64,000 bases of DNA. Source: Arthrobacter beigongshangensis. GTDB taxonomy: Bacteria; Bacillota; Bacilli; Bacillales_A; Planococcaceae. The stretch covers positions 62,001 through 126,000 of the forward strand of contig NZ_JADHDX010000009.1 of assembly GCF_016820585.1 (NCBI RefSeq), given 5' to 3'. Position numbers and translations under genes: made by a program. The notes beneath the pieces were generated by a model. It saw nothing but the letters and a program-made list of their open reading frames with translations. It ran no database searches and was not told where the DNA came from. Position 1 is the first letter of the stretch. Each line of letters opens with the position of its first letter. This document shows, piece by piece, positions 29,381 through 52,306 of this stretch.

Positions 29381-29573
29381 TGCTGTCACCCTATCCAGGA
29401 AAATTCTTTTCTCTATTGTAGCGCGTTGGCGGGGAATGTTCAAAATTAGGTGTGTGGGGATGAGAATTGGGTAGTAGTAAGATCCTGTTAAGCCAATATC
29501 ATTTTGATACTAAACAAAACTTTTGAAGTGGTGGACCTAATTTCTTTCGGATACATAATTAATTCTGAAAAGG

Positions 29574-29602
29574 TTGACAACTAATCAATCGCGTACTAAG
29601 AT
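29574..29602 (+). promoter_or_regulatory. Sigma-A promoter of the trp operon
   Basis: TTGACA (29574-29579), exactly 17 bp, TAAGAT (29597-29602). Transcription should begin near 29609, giving a leader of about 400 nt before trpE. The stretch 29381-29573 shows no other feature. Confidence 0.82.
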
Positions 29603-29627
29603 AAGAATAACTTTTTTGTTCAAAGAC

Positions 29628-29657
29628 GGGCAGGAGGTACCGAGAGCGGTGCCGCCC
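29628..29657 (+). promoter_or_regulatory. 5' stem-loop of the trp leader
   Basis: GGGC (29628-29631) pairs with GCCC (29654-29657) and GGTACC (29636-29641) with GGTGCC (29648-29653). An AGGA bulge lies on the 5' side. It ends 5 nt before the triplet array, the same relative place as the 5' stem-loop that aids TRAP binding in the B. subtilis trp leader. Role inferred by analogy. Confidence 0.65.
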
Positions 29658-29662
29658 ACGGA

Positions 29663-29695
29663 TAGATGAGTCGAGATGAGAAGAGCATAGCTGAG
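29663..29695 (+). promoter_or_regulatory. Candidate TRAP-binding triplet array in the trp leader
   Basis: Seven (G/U)AG triplets begin at 29663, 29668, 29673, 29678, 29683, 29688 and 29693. All are in register with 2-nt spacers: UAG, GAG, GAG, GAG, GAG, UAG, GAG. AAG and GAG resume at 29708 and 29713. This is the recognition pattern of the tryptophan-activated RNA-binding attenuation protein. It lies just ahead of T-box stem I. The pattern is seen directly; TRAP binding is inferred, and no mtrB gene lies in this window. Confidence 0.72.
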
Positions 29696-29707
29696 AAATT
29701 GTTGAAT

Positions 29708-29962
29708 AAGAAGAGTAGCATCGGTGCGCGATTTTAAGAGAGTCAGTGGGTGGTGTGAACTGATTCGCAGTCGATGTGAATGGACTTATGAGAGTTCCCT
29801 TGAATATGTTCAAGGGAGACGTATATCCCGCGTTAGGGGATGTGCCTTAGAGTTTAAGGCACGCTAAGTGGAGGCAGTTATGCTTCAATTAGAGGTGGCA
29901 ACGCGGTTTATTCCGTCCTCTGCAATCGGACTTTTATGTCCTTTTGCAGAGGACTTTTTTTA
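29708..29962 (+). ncRNA. T-box riboswitch (tRNA-Trp) of the trp operon
   Basis: The signature AGGTGGCAACGCGG (29893-29906) is the T-box sequence that pairs with the tRNA acceptor end. Upstream, stem I contains a GTGAA...GAATGGAC-type specifier loop; the codon UGG (29781-29783, followed by AC) specifies tryptophan. The terminator stem 29915-29954 follows. Uncharged tRNA-Trp should stabilise the antiterminator and permit trpEDCFBA transcription. Confidence 0.93.
29915..29961 (+). terminator. T-box-controlled leader terminator
   Basis: GTCCTCTGCA (29915-29924) pairs with TGCAGAGGAC (29945-29954), with an inner GGAC/GTCC pair and a following T7 run. The T-box sequence overlaps its competitor stem region just upstream. 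Confidence 0.92.
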
Positions 29963-29982
29963 TTTCATAAAGAATTTAGAAA

Positions 29983-30025
29983 CAGTTAAGGAGAGATGAG
30001 TTGAGATGAGTACAGGGCAGAAGAG
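29983..30025 (+). promoter_or_regulatory. Second NAG triplet array across the trpE ribosome binding site
   Basis: Triplets start every 5 nt at 29983 (CAG), 29988 (AAG), 29993, 29998, 30003, 30008 (all GAG), 30013, 30018 (CAG) and 30023 (GAG). The array covers the Shine-Dalgarno AAGGAG, the ATG at 30006 and the first trpE codons. TRAP bound here would block ribosomes, as it does at other B. subtilis genes. Inferred from pattern. Confidence 0.65.
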
Positions 30026-31379
30026 TTTACGGACGACGATGAAGAAGTTGAATGGTGATTCGCTTACACCGATTTTGATTTTTAGAAAAATGCAGGGTAA
30101 GCGTAAGTTTTTACTGGAGAGCTCCTCGAAGCATGAAGGATCTGGGCGTTATTCGTTTCTAGGTATGGATCCGTTGAAGTGCTATAGCGGACGGGACGGC
30201 AGGATTGAAGAGCATGTCTACGCGACGGGTAAGAAATATAGCCATGAGGGCGATTTGTTTGTGCTGTTGAAACGCTTGATGCCGCAGATTACGGATGATA
30301 TCGACTTTCCGTTTACGGGTGGAGCGGTTGGCTATGTCGGTTATGGGGCAGCGCGGGAAGGTGGCCGTCGTATAGAAGAGGATTTGGGATTCCCAGATGT
30401 CAACTTTAATGTCTACGAAACAATCATTGTGTTTGACCATGTGTTGAGCGAGGTGACGCTGTTGCATACGGAAATTAATGAGGTACAAAGCGTGCCCGAT
30501 TTGGATGCGTTAGCAGAAAGTATGTTGGTGGGTCCGGAAAAGGAGGATTCTACTTTTGAAATCTCTGACTATACCAGTTCTGTAACGCAACAGCAGTTTG
30601 AAGATTTAGTTCGCGGGGCAAAAGGCTATATCGAAGACGGTGAAGTCGAGCAAGTTGTGTTGTCGAGAAGAATGGTAGCGGATTTCAAAGGAGATCCATT
30701 TTCACTGTATCGCAAGCTACGAAAGCGCAATCCATCTCCGTATATGTACTATATGGAATTCGATGATCATGTCGTGGTGGGGACATCGCCAGAAAGCCTG
30801 GTCCGTGTGTCGAATGGCAAAGTGATGACGAACCCGATTGCGGGGACACGGCGACGAGGTCAAGACAAGGCTGAAGATGTGGTACTTGAAAAAGAATTGC
30901 TGGCAGATCCAAAGGAGGTTTCGGAACACGATATGCTGGTGGAGCTGGGACGCCATGATTTGGAGAAAATATGTGTGGCAGACTCGGTTGCCGTTACGAG
31001 CTACATGGAAGTGGTGCGTTATGAGCATGTCATGCATTTAGTGTCTGAAGTAGAAGGAACCTTATCGCCAGTGCTTCATTCTTTAGATGCATTAAGTACA
31101 TGTTTACCGGCGGGCACAGTAACAGGAACGCCGAAAACACGCGCGATGGAATTGATTGATGAATTAGAGCAAATGGATAGAGGCATTTATGGGGGGGCTA
31201 TTGGTTATATCGGTTTTAATGGCAACATGGATTTTGCGTTAACGATTCGTACGATGATTGTACGGGATGGCAAAGCATATGTGCAGGCAGGTGCAGGCAT
31301 TGTTGCAGCGTCAAATCCGACGGCAGAATACATGGAGACGGTCAATAAAGCCCGTTCGTTGTTAGAAGTTGTAAATTGA
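30006..31379 (+). CDS. trpE: Anthranilate synthase component I
   Basis: 457 residues. It converts chorismate with ammonia from the glutaminase partner into anthranilate, the first step of tryptophan synthesis. The N-terminal tryptophan feedback site LLESS and GRYSFLG are present. The catalytic chorismate-binding domain shows VVGTSPE, NPIAGTRRRG, LPAGTVTGTPKTRAMELID and GGAIGYIGF. No trpG glutaminase gene follows, so the subunit is probably shared with PabA elsewhere, as in Bacillus. ATG 30006 lies 10 nt after GGAGAG, within the NAG array. Confidence 0.96.
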   Translation: MSTGQKSLRTTMKKLNGDSLTPILIFRKMQGKRKFLLESSSKHEGSGRYSFLGMDPLKCYSGRDGRIEEHVYATGKKYSHEGDLFVLLKRLMPQITDDIDFPFTGGAVGYVGYGAAREGGRRIEEDLGFPDVNFNVYETIIVFDHVLSEVTLLHTEINEVQSVPDLDALAESMLVGPEKEDSTFEISDYTSSVTQQQFEDLVRGAKGYIEDGEVEQVVLSRRMVADFKGDPFSLYRKLRKRNPSPYMYYMEFDDHVVVGTSPESLVRVSNGKVMTNPIAGTRRRGQDKAEDVVLEKELLADPKEVSEHDMLVELGRHDLEKICVADSVAVTSYMEVVRYEHVMHLVSEVEGTLSPVLHSLDALSTCLPAGTVTGTPKTRAMELIDELEQMDRGIYGGAIGYIGFNGNMDFALTIRTMIVRDGKAYVQAGAGIVAASNPTAEYMETVNKARSLLEVVN

Positions 31380-31389
31380 ACTAGTCACC

Positions 31390-31427
31390 GAGTTTAGCTG
31401 AGTAGAGGAGAGATTGAGATGAGAGAG
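31390..31427 (+). promoter_or_regulatory. Third (G/U)AG array across the trpD ribosome binding site
   Basis: Triplets at 31390 GAG, 31395 UAG, 31400, 31405 and 31410 GAG are in 5-nt register. GAG follows at 31416 (3-nt spacer) and 31421, and GAG at 31425. The set spans the trpE-trpD gap, the SD GAGGAGAG and the trpD ATG at 31419. It suggests direct translational control of trpD by TRAP. Confidence 0.62.
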
Positions 31428-32450
31428 ATTGTAAGCAAAGTTGAGTTGGGGAACCATTTGATGTATGAAGAAATGTTGGATGCTGCCAACCTAATTTTTG
31501 ATGAACAGACGGATTCAAAGGATATTGTTGACTTCCTCGTAGCGTTGTCACGTAAAGGAGAGACAGCCCATGAGGTGGCGGCTCTTGCATTTGTGATGAA
31601 ATCACACGCTGTTCAACTGTCCGTTCCTGAAGGTGTCTACATGGATAACTGTGGAACAGGTGGAGACGGTTTGAACAGCTTTAATATTAGTACAGCATCA
31701 GCCTTTGTATTAGCGGGCGCAGGTGCATTGGTTGCCAAGCACGGCAATCGAAAAATTTCCAGTGCGGCGGGCAGTTCTGATGTGCTAGAAGAACTCGGAA
31801 TTCGTTCTGATTTCAGTAAGGAAGAAACGGCTGAATTGCTTCGCCAAGAAGGTATCACTTTCCTTCATGCGCCACAAGTTCATCCGAAAATGAAACGAAT
31901 TGGCGCCATTCGACAACAAATTGGTAAGCCAACTATTTTCAATTTGGTCGGTCCTTTGACCAATCCGATTCCGTTGAAAACACAATTTACAGGCATTAAT
32001 CGTCCAGATTTCACGATGGATTATGCAACGGTTTTACGAATGCTTGGTAGGGAACGCGCGATTGTCGTATCGGGTGCAGGTGGTATGGATGAGGCGTCGC
32101 TCGCAGGACAAAATATTTTCGTGCTACTGGATAAGGGAGATCTGATTCCGTTTTCATTAACTGCAGAGGATGTTGGATTGACATCCGCTCCTGCGTCAGC
32201 TATTCGTGGGGGAGATGCTAAAGAAAATGCAGCCATTATCCGTACTGTTTTTCAAGGGCAACGCGGTCCACATTTCGATACGATTGTCTTCAATGCCGGC
32301 ATCGGTTTGTTTGCGAATGGGCAAGTAGGAACGATACAAGAAGGCGTTAAACTGGCGACGGATAGCATTATATCGGGCAGGGCGCTAGAAAAATTACAAG
32401 CAGTCGTAGCATTTAGCGAAAAAATTGGGGAAAGGACGATGGCGAAATGA
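31419..32450 (+). CDS. trpD: Anthranilate phosphoribosyltransferase
   Basis: 343 residues. It transfers the phosphoribosyl group of PRPP to anthranilate. Visible PRPP/Mg motifs are DNCGTGGDG, NISTASAFV, KHGNRKISS and the DE pair in the GGMDEASL segment. The length is typical. ATG 31419 has GAGGAGAG upstream. It ends in an ATGA overlap with trpC. Confidence 0.96.
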   Translation: MREIVSKVELGNHLMYEEMLDAANLIFDEQTDSKDIVDFLVALSRKGETAHEVAALAFVMKSHAVQLSVPEGVYMDNCGTGGDGLNSFNISTASAFVLAGAGALVAKHGNRKISSAAGSSDVLEELGIRSDFSKEETAELLRQEGITFLHAPQVHPKMKRIGAIRQQIGKPTIFNLVGPLTNPIPLKTQFTGINRPDFTMDYATVLRMLGRERAIVVSGAGGMDEASLAGQNIFVLLDKGDLIPFSLTAEDVGLTSAPASAIRGGDAKENAAIIRTVFQGQRGPHFDTIVFNAGIGLFANGQVGTIQEGVKLATDSIISGRALEKLQAVVAFSEKIGERTMAK

Positions 32451-33235
32451 CTATTTTAGATAAAATTCTACAACAAAAGCAGCATGAAGTGCAGCAGTTG
32501 CTGACACAACAAACTATCCAACAAGTAAGCCGTCCATCACGTCCATCTTTATTCGACAAGTTATATCACTCAAAGCATTTGCAGGTCATTGCGGAAATGA
32601 AGCGTGCCTCTCCTTCGAAAGGGTTAATTGCTGAGGGTGCTGATCCTGTGGCACAAGCAATTATTTACGAAAAATCCGATGCAGCATGTATTTCAGTTCT
32701 AACAGATGCTCACTTCTTCCAGGGTTCATTTGAAGACTTGGCGGCCGTTGCGGATGCTGTTTCAATTCCGCTGCTTTGTAAGGACTTCATGATCCACACT
32801 GTACAGATTGATCAGGCGAAAAATGCGGGTGCCTCAGTAATTTTGCTTATTGTTGCGGCACTTACTGACGAAAAATTGTCCGAACTATATTCCTATGCTG
32901 TGGCAGCTGATCTCGAAGTGCTCGTAGAAGTGCATGACGAGATGGAATTGAAACGTGCGCTTGCACTAGATGCCAAGCTAATTGGTGTCAATAATCGTGA
33001 TTTGCGTACATTTGAGGTGGATTTGCAGCGGACAGAAGAAATTGCAGCGCTGTTTCCATTCCATGAAAAGCGTGTCCTCATTAGTGAAAGCGGTATTTGG
33101 CAGGCAGAAGACGCATTACGCGTCTCGAAAGCTGGTGCCAACGCAGTGCTTGTTGGTGAATCATTGATGCGTAGTGACTCGGTCGCGGAGGCTATTCAGT
33201 CCTTACAAGTGGCTACGCAAGGGGTGGTTCGATGA
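32447..33235 (+). CDS. trpC: Indole-3-glycerol-phosphate synthase
   Basis: 262-residue TIM barrel that decarboxylates and cyclises CdRP. Conserved catalytic features include EMKRASPSKG (Glu and Lys near residues 50-55), LCKDFMIH (Lys), VEVHDE, GVNNRDLRTF and SESGI. The ATG overlaps the trpD stop by 4 nt and the gene overlaps trpF by 4 nt, so translation is coupled through the operon. Confidence 0.96.
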   Translation: MTILDKILQQKQHEVQQLLTQQTIQQVSRPSRPSLFDKLYHSKHLQVIAEMKRASPSKGLIAEGADPVAQAIIYEKSDAACISVLTDAHFFQGSFEDLAAVADAVSIPLLCKDFMIHTVQIDQAKNAGASVILLIVAALTDEKLSELYSYAVAADLEVLVEVHDEMELKRALALDAKLIGVNNRDLRTFEVDLQRTEEIAALFPFHEKRVLISESGIWQAEDALRVSKAGANAVLVGESLMRSDSVAEAIQSLQVATQGVVR

Positions 33236-33849
33236 CGAAAGTAAAAATTTGCGGATTGATGGAGCAGGAGCATGTCAAAGTAGCTGTTGATGCAGGAACA
33301 GATGCGATTGGTTTCGTATTCGCTCCGAGTCGTCGACGCGTGACGATTGAGGAAGCGCAAAAGTTGGCGCATGATATCCCACCTGGGGTTCTAAAAATTG
33401 GCGTATTCGTCAATGCATCGGTTGAAGAAATCAAGGAAACGCATCGTCAAGTACCGCTCGATATTATCCAATTTCATGGAGATGAAAGCGCAGAATTCAT
33501 CAAAAAAATCGGACTTCCTTCTATTAAAGTACTATCAGTTCACAGTGATGAAGATGTGAGGCGGGCGACACAATATGAAGCGGATTATTTTTTGTTTGAT
33601 ACACCTGGAACGGATTATAAGGGTGGCAGCGGCATGACCTTCGATTGGGCGCTCATGAACAATGTCGGCATACAGGCAGATCGGGTTATTCTAGCAGGCG
33701 GATTGAATGTGGAAAATGTAGGAGAAGCAATTCGAAAAGTACAGCCGTATATGGTGGACGTGTCGAGTGGCGTCGAAATTATGAAGCGAAAAGATAGCAA
33801 CTTGATTCGTGCATTTATTCAAGCGGTTAGGGATGAGGGGCGATTGTGA
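33232..33849 (+). CDS. trpF: Phosphoribosylanthranilate isomerase
   Basis: 205-residue TIM barrel carrying out the Amadori rearrangement of PRA to CdRP. The catalytic Cys (KICGLM) and Asp ([14 protein letters not shown]) and the phosphate-binding ILAGGL and VSSGVE loops are present. ATGA overlap with trpC; 1-nt stop/start overlap (TGATG) with trpB. Confidence 0.95.
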
Positions 33850-35042
33850 TGGTAAAGGAATTGAAGGCAGGACGGTACGGCAAATTTGGTGGGCAGTTTG
33901 TGCCGGAAACATTAATGACGGCGTTGCTGGAATTGGAGCAGGCGTATGACGAGGCAATCGCAGATCCAGCTTTCATGGATGAAGTGAATCATTATTTAAC
34001 GGATTTTGTAGGACGGGAGACACCACTATATTTCGCGGAGAGACTGACGAAGCAGGCAGGTGGCGCCAAGATTTACTTGAAACGGGAAGACTTGAATCAT
34101 ACAGGTGCCCATAAAATTAATAATACCATCGGGCAGGCGTTGCTTGCCGTACGTATGGGCAAAAAGAAGATTGTGGCGGAAACGGGAGCTGGACAGCACG
34201 GAGTAGCGACAGCGACGGTTTGTGCATTGTTTGACCTCGAGTGTGTCATTTTCATGGGGGCAGAGGATATTCGCAGGCAGGAATTGAACGTTTTCCGAAT
34301 GGAATTGCTCGGCGCGAAGGTCGTTTCGGTTGATAAAGGCAGCGGAACACTTAAGGATGCGGTCAATGACGCATTGCGTTACTGGGTGGCGAATGTGGAG
34401 GATACGCATTATATTTTGGGTTCAGCTTTAGGGCCACATCCTTTCCCGAAAATTGTCCGTGATTTCCAGCGTGTGATTGGTGTGGAAACGAGAAGACAAA
34501 TTATAGAGAAAGCAGGTCGTCTGCCAGATGCAGTTGTAGCGTGTATTGGCGGGGGGAGCAATGCGATTGGTATGTTCCATCCATTTTTGGACGATGAAAA
34601 AGTAGCGTTGTATGGAGTGGAAGCGGCAGGCAGTGGACTGGAAACAGGGCTTCATGCGGCAGCGATTGCGGATGGCAAAGAAGGGGTTTTGCATGGAGCG
34701 TATATGTATATTCTGCAGGATGAGGATGGATTTATACAGGAAGCGCATTCGATTTCCGCGGGGCTCGATTATCCAGCTGTGGGTCCTGAGCATTGTCATT
34801 TGCATGATATTGGACGCGTGAAGTATACCGCGGTCACGGATGCAGGTGCATTGGAAGGCTTACAGCTGCTGTCAAAGTTGGAGGGAATTATTCCTGCCTT
34901 GGAAAGTGCACATGCTGTGCAATATGCGGTTGAGCTAGCAGGACAAATGAGTGAGGAAGAAATACTCGTCATTTGTCTATCGGGACGTGGTGACAAAGAC
35001 GTTCAAACAGTGCGCGATGCTTTGGGAGGTGGAGCGAAATGA
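33849..35042 (+). CDS. trpB: Tryptophan synthase beta chain
   Basis: 397 residues; a PLP enzyme joining indole and serine. The PLP Lys lies in [10 protein letters not shown]-type sequence (here [10 protein letters not shown]), the phosphate cup is GGGSNAIG, the COMM-domain and Glu in [10 protein letters not shown] are intact, and CLSGRGDKD is near the end. I choose ATG 33849; GTG 33846 is immediately upstream and could also serve with GAGGGG. Pairs with TrpA encoded next. Confidence 0.96.
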
Positions 35043-35827
35043 CGAAAACGATTCTATCGGATGCCATCAATGCTTGTGTCGAGCGTGGAAATAAAGCGTT
35101 TGTTCCGTATATTATGGCGGGAGACGGTGGACTTACGGCTTTGAAGGAGCAGATTTTATTCCTCCAGGAAGCAGGCGTGACGGCGATTGAGCTTGGTATT
35201 CCGTTTTCTGATCCAGTGGCGGATGGGCCAGTCATTCAAGAGGCGGGAGAACGGGCACTCAGCTCTGGAGTAACGCTCCGCAAGGTGTTGAAAGAACTTA
35301 CTTTGTTTATCGATGAAGTGACAGTTCCGTTAGTCATCATGAGCTATTTGAATCCAATTTTAAGCTATGGAATTCCTGAATTCGTCAAGGATTGTAGCAA
35401 CAGCGGTGTTCGTGGACTTATCATTCCGGATTTACCACTCGAGGAAAGTGATTTGCTACAGGATGCACTGGAAAACTCCGACATTGCGCTTATTCAACTT
35501 GTATCGTTGACGAGTCCACCGGAGAGGATACAGAAAATTACAGCCGTGGGCGAAGGTTTTATTTATGCAGTGACGGTCAATGGCATTACGGGTGTTAGAG
35601 ACGGCTTCAGTGATGATCTTCAAGCTCATTTAGAAAAATTAAAAGCAGTAAGTCCGGTCCCGGTGCTGGCTGGGTTTGGTATTTCGACACCTGAACAGGT
35701 TCAGTCGATTGGTGCTTTTGCCGACGGCGTTATTGTAGGAAGTGCCATTGTAGATGCTTTTCACCGTGGTGATTTACCAACTGTAGCAGCTTTGGTGAAG
35801 GCGGCAGAAAAAGAAATTTATAGTTGA
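35039..35827 (+). CDS. trpA: Tryptophan synthase alpha chain
   Basis: 262-residue TIM barrel releasing indole from indole-3-glycerol phosphate. The catalytic Glu is in [11 protein letters not shown] and the Asp in [10 protein letters not shown]. Phosphate-binding GFGIST and VGSAIV loops are present. ATGA overlap with trpB; last gene of the operon, followed by a terminator. Confidence 0.96.
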
Positions 35828-35967: not shown

Positions 35968-36801
35968 TTAACCTTCAACTGCAGCATCTGCCATTCTTTT
36001 CTTCGCAATCCAATCCGTTCCGAATTCAATCAGTGGTGTCATCGGCATAATTTTGCAGGTGGCAAGTCCTAGTAAACCCTCGATACCTACTTCAGGATTT
36101 ACCTCCGTGAACGCCTCGACAAGATTTGGGAAAAAGTCTGAGTCCAAATGCGCCATGTCGTAGGTAGCCCAGACCCGTTCGCCATTTAGCAACACAGCCG
36201 CGCCATCAGGGGAAGTCGTTAGCCCGGGTGCACGATATTCGGCTAGATGAAGGGCGGTACAAGTATCGTAATCGACACCAATCATCACAATTTTTACATC
36301 CGTGCCAAACATCTTCCCGAGTGGAGAAGTCATCCCGAACGAGTCATGTAAGAAATGCCCGTTCATCCAGTCTTTTGCGTGTTGGCCCCACGCCATAAAG
36401 GAGTGGGTAGGGTGAGCACTTCGAATGGTTGCGGGATGACGGTGGAAGCACTCTGCGATTTTTCCCATACCGCGTAAAGATGAAAGATGTGGATCATAGG
36501 CTGGAAGAGATTGGCGGATGTGCTCATACCACTCTTCTGGAACAGGAGGGTTTTTCCAATTAGACGGCTCTGAATTATCAGCGGATTGCGCGGGCATAAT
36601 GATTGTTCCGTCGGAAGTGACTGTTTCCATCAATGCTTCAACGACAGTCTGCGCGCCTCCGGCAATCCAGCCCATCGACTGGAGTGAAGCGTGAACGATG
36701 ATGTTATCACCTGCCTGAATCCCAAGTGTTTGAAGCTGTTGTTGTAACATCGCTTTCGATTGGAAAGAATGTGTACGTTGAATTGTTTTGAGCTCGCTCA
36801 T
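35968..36801 (-). CDS. AAC(3)-family N-acetyltransferase
   Basis: 277 residues of the aminoglycoside 3-N-acetyltransferase (antibiotic_NAT) fold. The region IIVHASLQSMGWIAGGA starts the acetyl-CoA site, TIIMPAQS follows, and the conserved His appears in SAHPTHSFMAWG (about residue 160-170), with GVDYDTCTALHLAE beyond it. Chromosomal Bacillus relatives (YokD, BA2930 group) do not always acetylate aminoglycosides. Start at 36799-36801 with AGGATGATG upstream; it stands alone downstream of trp on the opposite strand. Resistance is possible, not established. Confidence 0.87.
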   Translation of the reverse strand: MSELKTIQRTHSFQSKAMLQQQLQTLGIQAGDNIIVHASLQSMGWIAGGAQTVVEALMETVTSDGTIIMPAQSADNSEPSNWKNPPVPEEWYEHIRQSLPAYDPHLSSLRGMGKIAECFHRHPATIRSAHPTHSFMAWGQHAKDWMNGHFLHDSFGMTSPLGKMFGTDVKIVMIGVDYDTCTALHLAEYRAPGLTTSPDGAAVLLNGERVWATYDMAHLDSDFFPNLVEAFTEVNPEVGIEGLLGLATCKIMPMTPLIEFGTDWIAKKRMADAAVEG

Positions 36802-46350: not shown

Positions 46351-46473
46351 TACGCTGTATGTTCTTGCAGTAATTATAAAACACAAAGAGAGTTAGGAAT
46401 ACGCAATAAGGAAGCCTGTCTAATTTGAATTAGTTTGGTTTATTTATCACACAAAAAAATGAGGTGCTTTGAA

Positions 46474-46776
46474 TTGAAACTATCACCAGTTGAACAGGAG
46501 AAATTGCTTCTTCACGTGGCGGGAGAACTCGCGCTTAAGCGGAAGGAACGAGGGGTTAAGTTAAATTACCCAGAATCGATGGCATTACTTAGCCATTTCA
46601 TCATGGAAGGCGCGCGCGATGGTAAGACGGTTGCACAGCTGATGAGTGAAGGCAAACAGGTGTTGACGGTTGACGATGTTATGGAAGGCGTTGGCGATAT
46701 GATTAGCGACGTGCAGATTGAGTGTACATTCCCAGATGGGACGAAGCTTGTGACGGTCCATCGCCCAATTCAATAA
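46474..46776 (+). CDS. ureA: Urease subunit gamma
   Basis: 100 residues, the standard gamma-subunit length. It is part of the (alpha-beta-gamma)3 nickel enzyme that hydrolyses urea to ammonia and carbamate. The start is TTG 46474 with GAGGTG 7 nt upstream, giving the canonical MKLSP-type N-terminus; an ATG 18 nt earlier extends it unnaturally. First gene of ureABCEFGD. Confidence 0.95.
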
Positions 46777-46791
46777 AAGGAGGATTCATCC

Positions 46792-47160
46792 ATGATTCCA
46801 GGAGAAATTAGGCCAGCAGAAGGCGTGATTGAAATTAATGTTGGGCGTCCAGTAAAAACGGTTCGCGTCGCAAATACAGGCGATCGCCCAATTCAGGTGG
46901 GTTCCCACTTTCACTTTGTTGAGGTCAATAAATACCTGACGTTTGATCGTGAGGAATCGGTTGGGATGCACTTGAACATTCCGTCTGGTACAGCCGTGCG
47001 TTTTGAACCAGGTGAAGAGAAGGAAGTTGAGCTGACGGAGTTCGGCGGAAAACGCCATGTGTTTGGGTTGAATAAGTTGACGGAAGGCTCGACGCATAAT
47101 AAGGATGAAATTTTGGACAAGGCAATAGAGGGCGGTTTTAAAGGAGCGGAGGACAAATGA
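46792..47160 (+). CDS. ureB: Urease subunit beta
   Basis: 122 residues; hallmark [17 protein letters not shown] and [13 protein letters not shown] motifs. Structural subunit without catalytic residues. Strong AAAGGAGG site; overlaps ureC by 4 nt (ATGA). Confidence 0.96.
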
Positions 47161-48872
47161 AGGTTACACATGAGCAATATGCAAAAATGTTCGGTCCGAC
47201 AGTCGGTGACAAAATCCGTCTTGCAGATACAGACTTGTGGATTGAAATTGAAAAAGATTATACGACTTACGGTGATGAAGGTGTTTTTGGCGGTGGAAAA
47301 TCTCTGCGTGTATCGATGGGGCAGAATGGTAAAAACACACGTGATGAAGGTGTGCTAGACACGGTCATTACGAACGTCATGATTATTGATTACACAGGGA
47401 TTGTCAAAGCAGATATTGGAATTAAAGATGGTCGTATCATTGGGGTCGGTAAGGCTGGTAATCCGAATTCGATGGATGGCGTTGATCAGGATATGATTAT
47501 TGGCGTGGGAACGGAAGTGTATGCGGGTGAAGGCTTAATCGCGACAGCGGGTGCCATTGATACACATATTCACTTCATTAGTCCTCAACAGGTTGAAACA
47601 GCACTGAATGCTGGAACGACGACATTTATCGGTGGTGGGACGGGCCCGGCAGCGGGATCGAAGGCTACGAGTGTCACGCCGGGTGTATGGCATCTTCACC
47701 GGATGTTGCAAGCGGTTGAAGATTTACCAGTTAACGTCGGTCTTCTTGGTAAAGGAAGTGCATCTGTTCCTGAGCCGATTATTGAACAAATTCAGGCTGG
47801 TGCAATCGGCATGAAGATACATGAAGACTGGGGTGCGACTCCCGCTGCACTCGATCAGAGTCTAACGGTGGCGGATGAATATGATATTCAGGTCGCGCTT
47901 CACTCTGATACGCTCAACGAGGCAGGTTTTGTGGAAGATACGATTGCGGCGATTGACGGCCGTGTCATTCATATTTTCCATACAGAAGGAGCAGGGGGCG
48001 GACATGCACCGGATCAGCTGAAATTGGCGGGATATTCGAACATTTTACCCGCATCGACGAATCCAACAAAACCGTTTACGACAAATACGATAGACGAGCA
48101 TTTAGACATGCTGATGGTCTGTCACCATTTGAAACACGATGTAACAGAAGATGTGGCATTTGCTGACTCGCGTATCCGTCCTGAAACAATTGCGGCGGAA
48201 GACATCATGCAGGATATGGGGATTCTCAGTATTATGTCCTCAGATTCACAAGCGATGGGCCGTGTCGGTGAAGTGACGATTCGTACGTTCCAAACGGCTG
48301 ATAAAATGAAAAAACAGCGTGGTCCTCTTCCACAAGACGAAGGAAAAGATCATGATAATTATCGTGTGAAACGTTATATTGCAAAATTAAACATTAACCC
48401 AGCGATTGCTCACGGCATTAGTCATGAGGTTGGTTCTATTGAAGAAGGAAAACTTGCGGATATTATTTTATGGGATCCGGCATTCTTTGGCGTCAAAGCA
48501 GAAGTTGTGATTAAAGGCGGAATCGCAGTGTACGCTATGACAGGTGATCCGAATGCTTCAATTCCGACACCGCAACCGATGATGGGTCGTCGTATGTATG
48601 GTTTTCATGGTAAAGGGCCACAAAATGCAGCAATGACATTTTTACCGAAAATTGCAGTGGAAGAAGGTCTTCCAGAAAAACTCGGTTTACAGCGAATGAT
48701 TGGTACGGTGAAAAACTGCCGTAACATAGGAAAAGCAGACATGAAGCATAATAGTGAAACACCTGAAATCGACGTCAATCCAGAGACATATGAAGTGAAA
48801 ATTGACGGTGTCTTGGCGACTTGCGAACCGGTAAGTGTACTTCCGATGGCGCAGCGATACTTCTTATTTTAA
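47157..48872 (+). CDS. ureC: Urease subunit alpha (catalytic)
   Basis: 571 residues of the amidohydrolase superfamily. Ni ligands: His pair in DTHIHFISP, carbamylated Lys 220 in [11 protein letters not shown], His in [10 protein letters not shown] and [14 protein letters not shown], and Asp in [10 protein letters not shown]. The mobile flap [10 protein letters not shown] carries the active-site Cys and His. All needed residues are intact, so the enzyme should be active when loaded with nickel. Confidence 0.98.
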
Positions 48873-52192: not shown

Positions 52193-52306
52193 TTCTTATC
52201 CAGAGAGGTGGAGGGACTGGCCCTTTGATACCTCAGCAACAGACTTTTTTAGTACTGTGCTAATTCCAGAAGCCGAAGCATTTTGCTTGTAGCTTGAAGA
52301 TAAGAA
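52193..52306 (+). ncRNA. SAM-I riboswitch (S-box leader)
   Basis: P1 closes with TTCTTATC (52193-52200) and GATAAGAA (52299-52306). Inside are the conserved AGAGAGGTGGAGGGACTGG, TTTGATACCTCAGCAAC and GTGCTAATTCCAG blocks. High S-adenosylmethionine should favour the terminator at 52327. Controls the MetE-like gene downstream. Confidence 0.96.

Follow-up and report, generated by a model that had tools for sequence, protein, structure and literature searches.

A trp operon leader that joins a TRAP-type triplet array to a tryptophan T-box

The trp operon of Bacillus is the textbook example of an operon governed by two separate sensors, TRAP and a T-box that acts via anti-TRAP. In B. subtilis the trp leader contains 11 triplets separated by spacers of 2-3 nt (PMC3913778), and stable binding by TRAP needs at least seven triplets (PMC4027176). 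TRAP also controls the translation of trpE and trpG in this organism (PMC7430163). Translational control of B. subtilis trpP and ycbK by TRAP is likewise known. Uncharged tRNA favors the T-box antiterminator (PMC7430163), and the T-box of B. subtilis rtpA/yczA, which drives a separate TRAP-sequestering gene, feeds the uncharged tRNA-Trp signal into TRAP-controlled trp expression (PMC11255114). Other Bacillota place single or tandem T-boxes before trpE, with no TRAP site mentioned in the relevant sections of PMC12452182 and PMC4342826; the word TRAP is absent from the main text of PMC12452182, and TRAP presence is marked in Figure 5 of PMC2494555.

The locus described here lies in a window of 64,000 nt, by which we mean the whole stretch of DNA analyzed, and contains a trpEDCFBA operon (30006-35827, + strand) whose trpE has Sporosarcina records as its closest named relatives. 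From 5' to 3' its leader consists of a promoter-like site, a stem-loop, triplets, a Trp T-box, a terminator and an array at the trpE start (Table 1). The likeness to the B. subtilis trp leader extends to TRAP, to (G/U)AG triplets with 2-nt spacers and to the gene order; unlike that leader, this one has seven triplets rather than 11, places a T-box and terminator between the array and trpE, and is followed by trpE and trpD ribosome binding sites that carry arrays of their own. The T-box precedes trpE, as in the T-box trp operons of other Bacillota, and would serve the same signal as that of rtpA/yczA, but it sits in the trp leader itself. TRAP represses translation in B. subtilis; here the arrays lie directly over the starts of trpE, trpD and trpP. 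A gene with an Antibiotic_NAT domain follows trpA on the opposite strand (35968-36801, -) and falls below the cut-off of all five NCBIfam aminoglycoside-acetyltransferase models that it matched.

Table 1. Positions of the trp leader elements and genes within the window.
Feature	Position	Strand	Basis or comment
Likely trp promoter: TTGACA, 17 nt, TAAGAT	29574..29602	+	Consensus scan only, 10/12 matches
5' stem-loop, 11 base pairs	29628..29657	+	RNAalifold, 34 leaders; pair counts, 30 leaders
Leader TRAP-type array: seven (G/U)AG, exact 5-nt period	29663..29695	+	Kept in relatives
Trp T-box, extent of the Rfam match	29693..29923	+	RF00230, 119.1 bits
Specifier codon UGG (Trp)	29781..29783	+	Rfam alignment position after GAA
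T-box sequence GGTGGCAACGCGG, antiterminator side	29894..29906	+	Invariant in 34 aligned leaders
Intrinsic terminator hairpin and U-tract	29915..29961	+	
TRAP-type array, nine NAG, over trpE ribosome binding site and start codon	29983..30025	+	
trpE, anthranilate synthase component I	30006..31379	+	NCBIfam TIGR00564 above cut-off; Pfam
TRAP-type array over trpD ribosome binding site	31390..31427 (best chain 31382-31445)	+	
trpD	31419..32450	+	Pfam glycosyl transferase family 3 domains, operon position
trpC	32447..33235	+	Pfam IGPS
trpF	33232..33849	+	Pfam PRAI
trpB	33846..35042	+	Pfam PALP and position
trpA	35039..35827	+	Pfam Trp_syntA

The RF00230 match (119.1 bits) exceeds the gathering score of 93 and so meets the T-box threshold. 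In the Rfam alignment GAA-UGG occupies the specifier position, and trpE follows, meeting the criterion that the specifier name the amino acid of the pathway, and GAATGG is invariant across 34 aligned leaders. The occurrence of GGTGGCAACGCGG with a hairpin and U-tract satisfies the further criterion of a T-box sequence and competing terminator. That this T-box reads uncharged tRNA-Trp is nevertheless inferred from sequence alone, without tRNA-binding data. The elements of the leader are closely packed at its 5' end, the triplets beginning 5 nt after the stem-loop and T-box stem I starting about 9 nt after the array, which itself lies about 220 nt upstream of the terminator. Pairing of the stem-loop was kept in 97.3% of 330 cells (30 leaders) as against 38-50% in slid controls, and double-sided changes numbered 36 versus 11.3 in shuffles; two of the five covariation measures were not clearly above shuffles (111 and 38 of 500 reached the observed value), and the shuffles were not corrected for relatedness.

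The leader array fits the description of a TRAP site as a series of (G/U)AG triplets separated by 2-3 nt, with seven triplets at an exact 5-nt period. The array at trpE keeps exact 5-nt spacing across the ATG at 30006, and (G/T)AG makes up five of its nine NAG triplets, four of the five in a row. That at trpD has five KAG triplets at exact 5-nt spacing from 31390, within a best chain (31382-31445) of 12 NAG triplets at spacings of 4-8 nt. Chain scores were 21.1 at the trpD start, 17.3 at the trpE start and 16.0 in the leader; no other chain in the whole 64-kb window, on either strand, scored above 8.6, about half of these. The longest exact 5-nt run in 1000 dinucleotide-preserving shuffles of 29501-30100 was four KAG or five NAG, and the best chain score in the shuffles averaged 6.3 with a maximum of 14.7, compared with the 17.3 and 16.0 observed in that segment. 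The genome has 23 T-box matches (17 over the Rfam cut-off), and upstream of the 22 others the best chain scored 3.7. Among 64 ORF starts (mechanical starts of window ORFs of at least 120 aa), only those of trpD and trpE scored above 7.2. Windows inside trpE coding sequences (n = 667, loci partly redundant) had a 99th percentile of 7.7 and a maximum of 10.2, and the array cut-off of 9 used below lies between these values. A scan of the whole genome for five exact triplets had hits in just three places, the trp leader, the beginning of trpD and that of the trpP transporter gene, where five exact triplets occur; the reversed pattern had no match anywhere in the genome. We consider it very likely, in the absence of binding data, that the arrays are more than ordinary purine-rich sequence, an origin rejected on the strength of the shuffles, the other T-boxes, the ORF starts and the coding windows.

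In the consensus structure the leader array is unpaired save for its last triplet and the next two A residues, which pair with the U-tract, and in the minimum-energy fold of the window's own leader part of the array is paired. The only link between the array and the terminator region found by RNAalifold consists of five A-U or G-U pairs joining GAGAA to the U-tract, a pairing that in our judgment is spurious. An attenuator of the B. subtilis type was ruled out, since the 34-leader consensus fold builds no antiterminator from the array.

A single mtrB gene, encoding TRAP, was found in the genome (E 6e-40, NCBIfam MtrB equivalog), placed behind folE. The protein aligns with solved TRAP structures over nearly its whole length, and its residues E33, K34, K53 and R55 correspond to E36, K37, K56 and R58 of B. 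subtilis TRAP (equivalence read from the 1wap row with an offset of 3), which are named as RNA contacts in PMC4027176. mtrB is present in all 250 family genomes drawn and in 60 of 61 genomes of the genus, the one without it being 75% complete. No anti-TRAP gene (rtpA) was found over the cut-off in this genome (six weaker matches, the best at 20.3 bits versus 32), nor in any of 23 genomes at E 1e-5, a search in which the B. subtilis control was positive. The criterion for an anti-TRAP system, presence of an rtpA gene, is thus not met, and the lack of a match fits a leader that would read tRNA-Trp charging itself.

Within the genus (61 genomes, one deposited as Filibacter), pattern matching placed a T-box motif upstream of trpE in every genome, and the leader array scored at least 9 in all except one, which has four triplets; two leaders carry inserts. 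The number of triplets varies, with seven or more NAG in the leader chain of 45 of the 61 genomes and seven or more (G/U)AG in only 26, down to a minimum of four. The many relatives with fewer than seven (G/U)AG, set against the published requirement for at least seven, count against the TRAP reading. An array of at least 9 covers the trpE ribosome binding site in 26/61 genomes, that of trpD in 45/61 and either one in 48/61, and this patchiness counts against a two-input leader with added translational control. The distance from the stem-loop to the conserved triplets, obtained from the 42 of 61 loci that parsed, was 22-24 nt in four loci, 27-29 in 11, 33-34 in 25, and 36 and 38 in one each; since these lengths are clustered, the arrays vary in length by close to whole multiples of the 5-nt unit. 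The spacing between the conserved TAG and stem I was 14-15 nt in 46 of 56 loci, 12 in eight, 11 in one and 9 in one, five of the 61 loci remaining unparsed.

These results bear on a preliminary description of the stretch. Its claims of a leader with a stem-loop, seven exactly spaced (G/U)AG triplets, a UGG T-box and a terminator, and of a nine-member NAG array over the trpE ribosome binding site, held; its trpD array held in part, being longer (to 31445) and less regular than claimed. It had proposed searches for mtrB and rtpA, which returned a TRAP gene and no match over the cut-off, respectively. It had also proposed comparing triplet spacing among relatives, where the periodicity proved to be kept, and the arrays at the trpE and trpD ribosome binding sites, which hold here, proved less universal than that of the leader. 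The two refuting conditions examined, a missing mtrB and a periodicity lost in relatives, thus did not apply.

A group of loci in the genus (L032, L033, L137-L140, L142, L143, L145, L147-L149 and L160) has the T-box motif 250 to 471 nt before trpE, versus about 90 to 200 nt in the other loci. The extra sequence that separates the terminator from trpE in such loci resembles palindromic or tandem repeats, and inspection of ten loci by eye showed no common ORF, for anti-TRAP or another gene.

Beyond the genus, a model of the stem-loop plus array (R1) matched 37 of 398 class-wide genomes, all of them in the window's family; the negatives include at least two family genomes. A trpE search of the family (35 genomes, 18 genera, 62 matches) provided 30 loci for scoring, one per genome. 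Fourteen of these (L183-L196) matched R1, with the T-box pattern present in 12 and a variant seen by eye in the other two (L187, L190), of which Rfam confirms that of L187. Ten of the 14 have an array of at least 8.5 at the trpE start or close to it, and at L185 the array chain scored below 8.5 despite the R1 match. The Solibacillus locus L129 also has both an R1 match and a T-box. Eleven of the 37 R1 loci, besides the window, were run through Rfam (L237-L247), and nine, all but L242 and L246, reached the T-box threshold; the genomes of those two show the T-box pattern (L189 and L186, respectively). T-box status therefore covers only part of the 37. The T-box pattern missed variants such as GGTGGCACCACGG, which were read by eye, and Rfam confirmed the variant T-boxes of L187, L197, L199 and L200. 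It is thus shown that the pairing of array and T-box recurs in many members of the family; its function is inferred.

None of the 16 other family trpE loci (L197-L212) had an R1 match under E 0.005. R1 matched elsewhere in at least six genomes of this set (G103, G109, G113, G117, G127 and G131), in G113 and G131 immediately upstream of a further trpE-like gene. Loci L203 and L204 of genus g43 combine a T-box motif with a start array, and no leader array was found in them. In genus g48, L200 is an additional trpE-trpG pair that has a Trp T-box and a start triplet array but no leader array, on a different contig from the leader-array operon of that genome. L206 and L207, from genus g40, appear by eye to have two successive T-box-like elements and no triplet array before trpE, and the g40 genomes searched encode TRAP.

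Outside the family we compared nine trpE loci (L161-L169). Arrays of 9 to 15 triplets without a T-box motif were found in six, none of which showed by eye a stem-loop of the type seen in the window's family; one of the nine had a T-box motif without an array and two had neither. The T-box locus, L161, comes from a genome with a TRAP gene (G094), and TRAP and a trpE T-box can therefore coexist without an array, a point against the two-input reading.

The arrays, stem-loop, T-box, terminator, TRAP gene, lack of anti-TRAP over the cut-off and conservation are all shown by sequence. Taken with known TRAP and T-box biology, they suggest that the leader is likely a two-input attenuator, in which TRAP would report free tryptophan and the T-box tRNA-Trp charging, with TRAP also acting on translation; TRAP binding and repression are inferred, and there are no binding or expression data. 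In this reading, tryptophan-activated TRAP would bind the leader array downstream of the 5' stem-loop, and uncharged tRNA-Trp would bind the T-box and stabilize the antiterminator, so that RNA polymerase reads through. TRAP-tryptophan beside the base of stem I would oppose readthrough by leaving no room for stem I or for docking of the tRNA, and full expression would require low free tryptophan together with uncharged tRNA-Trp. On finished transcripts TRAP would cover the trpE and trpD ribosome binding sites and block translation, the trpP transporter mRNA would be subject to the same block, and the cis-acting T-box would substitute for anti-TRAP. The preliminary description had predicted dual sensing of free tryptophan and tRNA-Trp charging, as well as TRAP action on the translation of two genes. 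Both predictions are supported, the second by the arrays at trpE and trpD, but only by inference, since data on TRAP binding and on the regulatory outcome are lacking.

How the two sensors would meet is less certain. The array sits at near-fixed distances between the stem-loop and the base of stem I, and for this reason we lean, by a narrow margin, toward direct antagonism between TRAP and the T-box, an inference that rests on geometry only. Whether to take the bolder view of a composite protein-tRNA attenuator, with TRAP-tryptophan physically blocking stem I or tRNA docking, is a question on which the case for and the case against seem to us evenly balanced. When the array was held single-stranded, the mean probability of the stem I base helix was 0.25 versus 0.22 when free (34 leaders); folding thus gives no support for TRAP-driven unfolding, and the thermodynamic model predicts stem I poorly.

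The principal rival to direct antagonism is independent action, which remains possible: the T-box alone would set transcription, and TRAP bound to the leader would affect only translation, mRNA stability or TRAP loading, leaving antitermination alone. In its favor, the array stops some 9 nt short of stem I, the triplets form no conserved antiterminator, holding the array single-stranded had no systematic effect on stem I, and the two ribosome binding sites already have arrays of their own. Against it, the leader array is more widely kept (60/61) than the ribosome-binding-site arrays (26/61 and 45/61), and its 3' edge lies at a near-constant distance from stem I, which a free-standing site would not need. 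It is unlikely that TRAP instead acts on RNA polymerase itself to bring about termination, bypassing the T-box RNA. Such a mode has precedent in TRAP-induced termination independent of the attenuator in the B. subtilis leader (PMC3913778) and in forward translocation of RNA polymerase (PMC7430163); however, the array here is about 220 nt upstream of the terminator, and K57 occupies the equivalent of E60 (1wap offset), in a region that PMC7430163 ties to this activity.

Least probable, and in our view very unlikely, is that the arrays are chance or purine-rich, Shine-Dalgarno-like sequence unbound by TRAP, leaving a plain T-box operon. No binding data exist to exclude this, and ribosome binding sites are naturally rich in purines. 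Nevertheless, the exact runs and chain scores exceed those of all 1000 shuffles, the scores exceed those at the 22 other T-boxes of the genome and at 62 other ORF starts, the periodicity survives length changes of about one unit, and a TRAP gene is found in 250/250 family genomes.

No description of a leader combining TRAP and T-box sites was found in the open-access literature searched, which did not cover older comparative papers (PubMed 17555843, 18374625 and 19258532). The statement in the preliminary description that no leader with both was known therefore met nothing to the contrary, and the combination is only provisionally new. The two sensors appear fused in one leader in many members of the family, with no anti-TRAP found, which bears on the question raised in PMC11255114 of why anti-TRAP is made by only some bacilli, and the leader offers a defined RNA for studying direct interaction between a protein sensor and a tRNA sensor. 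If the composite attenuator is real, it would compute "low free tryptophan AND uncharged tRNA-Trp" within one leader, acting in cis as the equivalent of the TRAP/anti-TRAP circuit of B. subtilis and conserved in much of the family.

Several minor observations concern other parts of the genome. Its five GATase (PF00117) matches are CarA, PyrG, PurQ, GMP synthase and a PuuD-like protein (L251-L255), the last below its model cut-off. None of them is a stand-alone TrpG/PabA, and a TrpG query taken from L200 was also without a match. In the GMP synthase frame (L254, 453 aa) the match to the model begins only at position 174, suggesting that the glutaminase domain may be reduced. Use of free ammonia, there being a urease in the window, could lie behind these findings, as could gaps in the assembly; both explanations are tentative. 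The urease structural genes (gamma, beta and alpha, by Pfam) lie at 46435-48872 (+), and an Rfam 5_ureB_sRNA match at 47304-47601 (-) is antisense and inside the alpha subunit gene. Finally, the gene that follows a SAM riboswitch at 52193-52306 (+) has a domain of cobalamin-independent methionine synthase.
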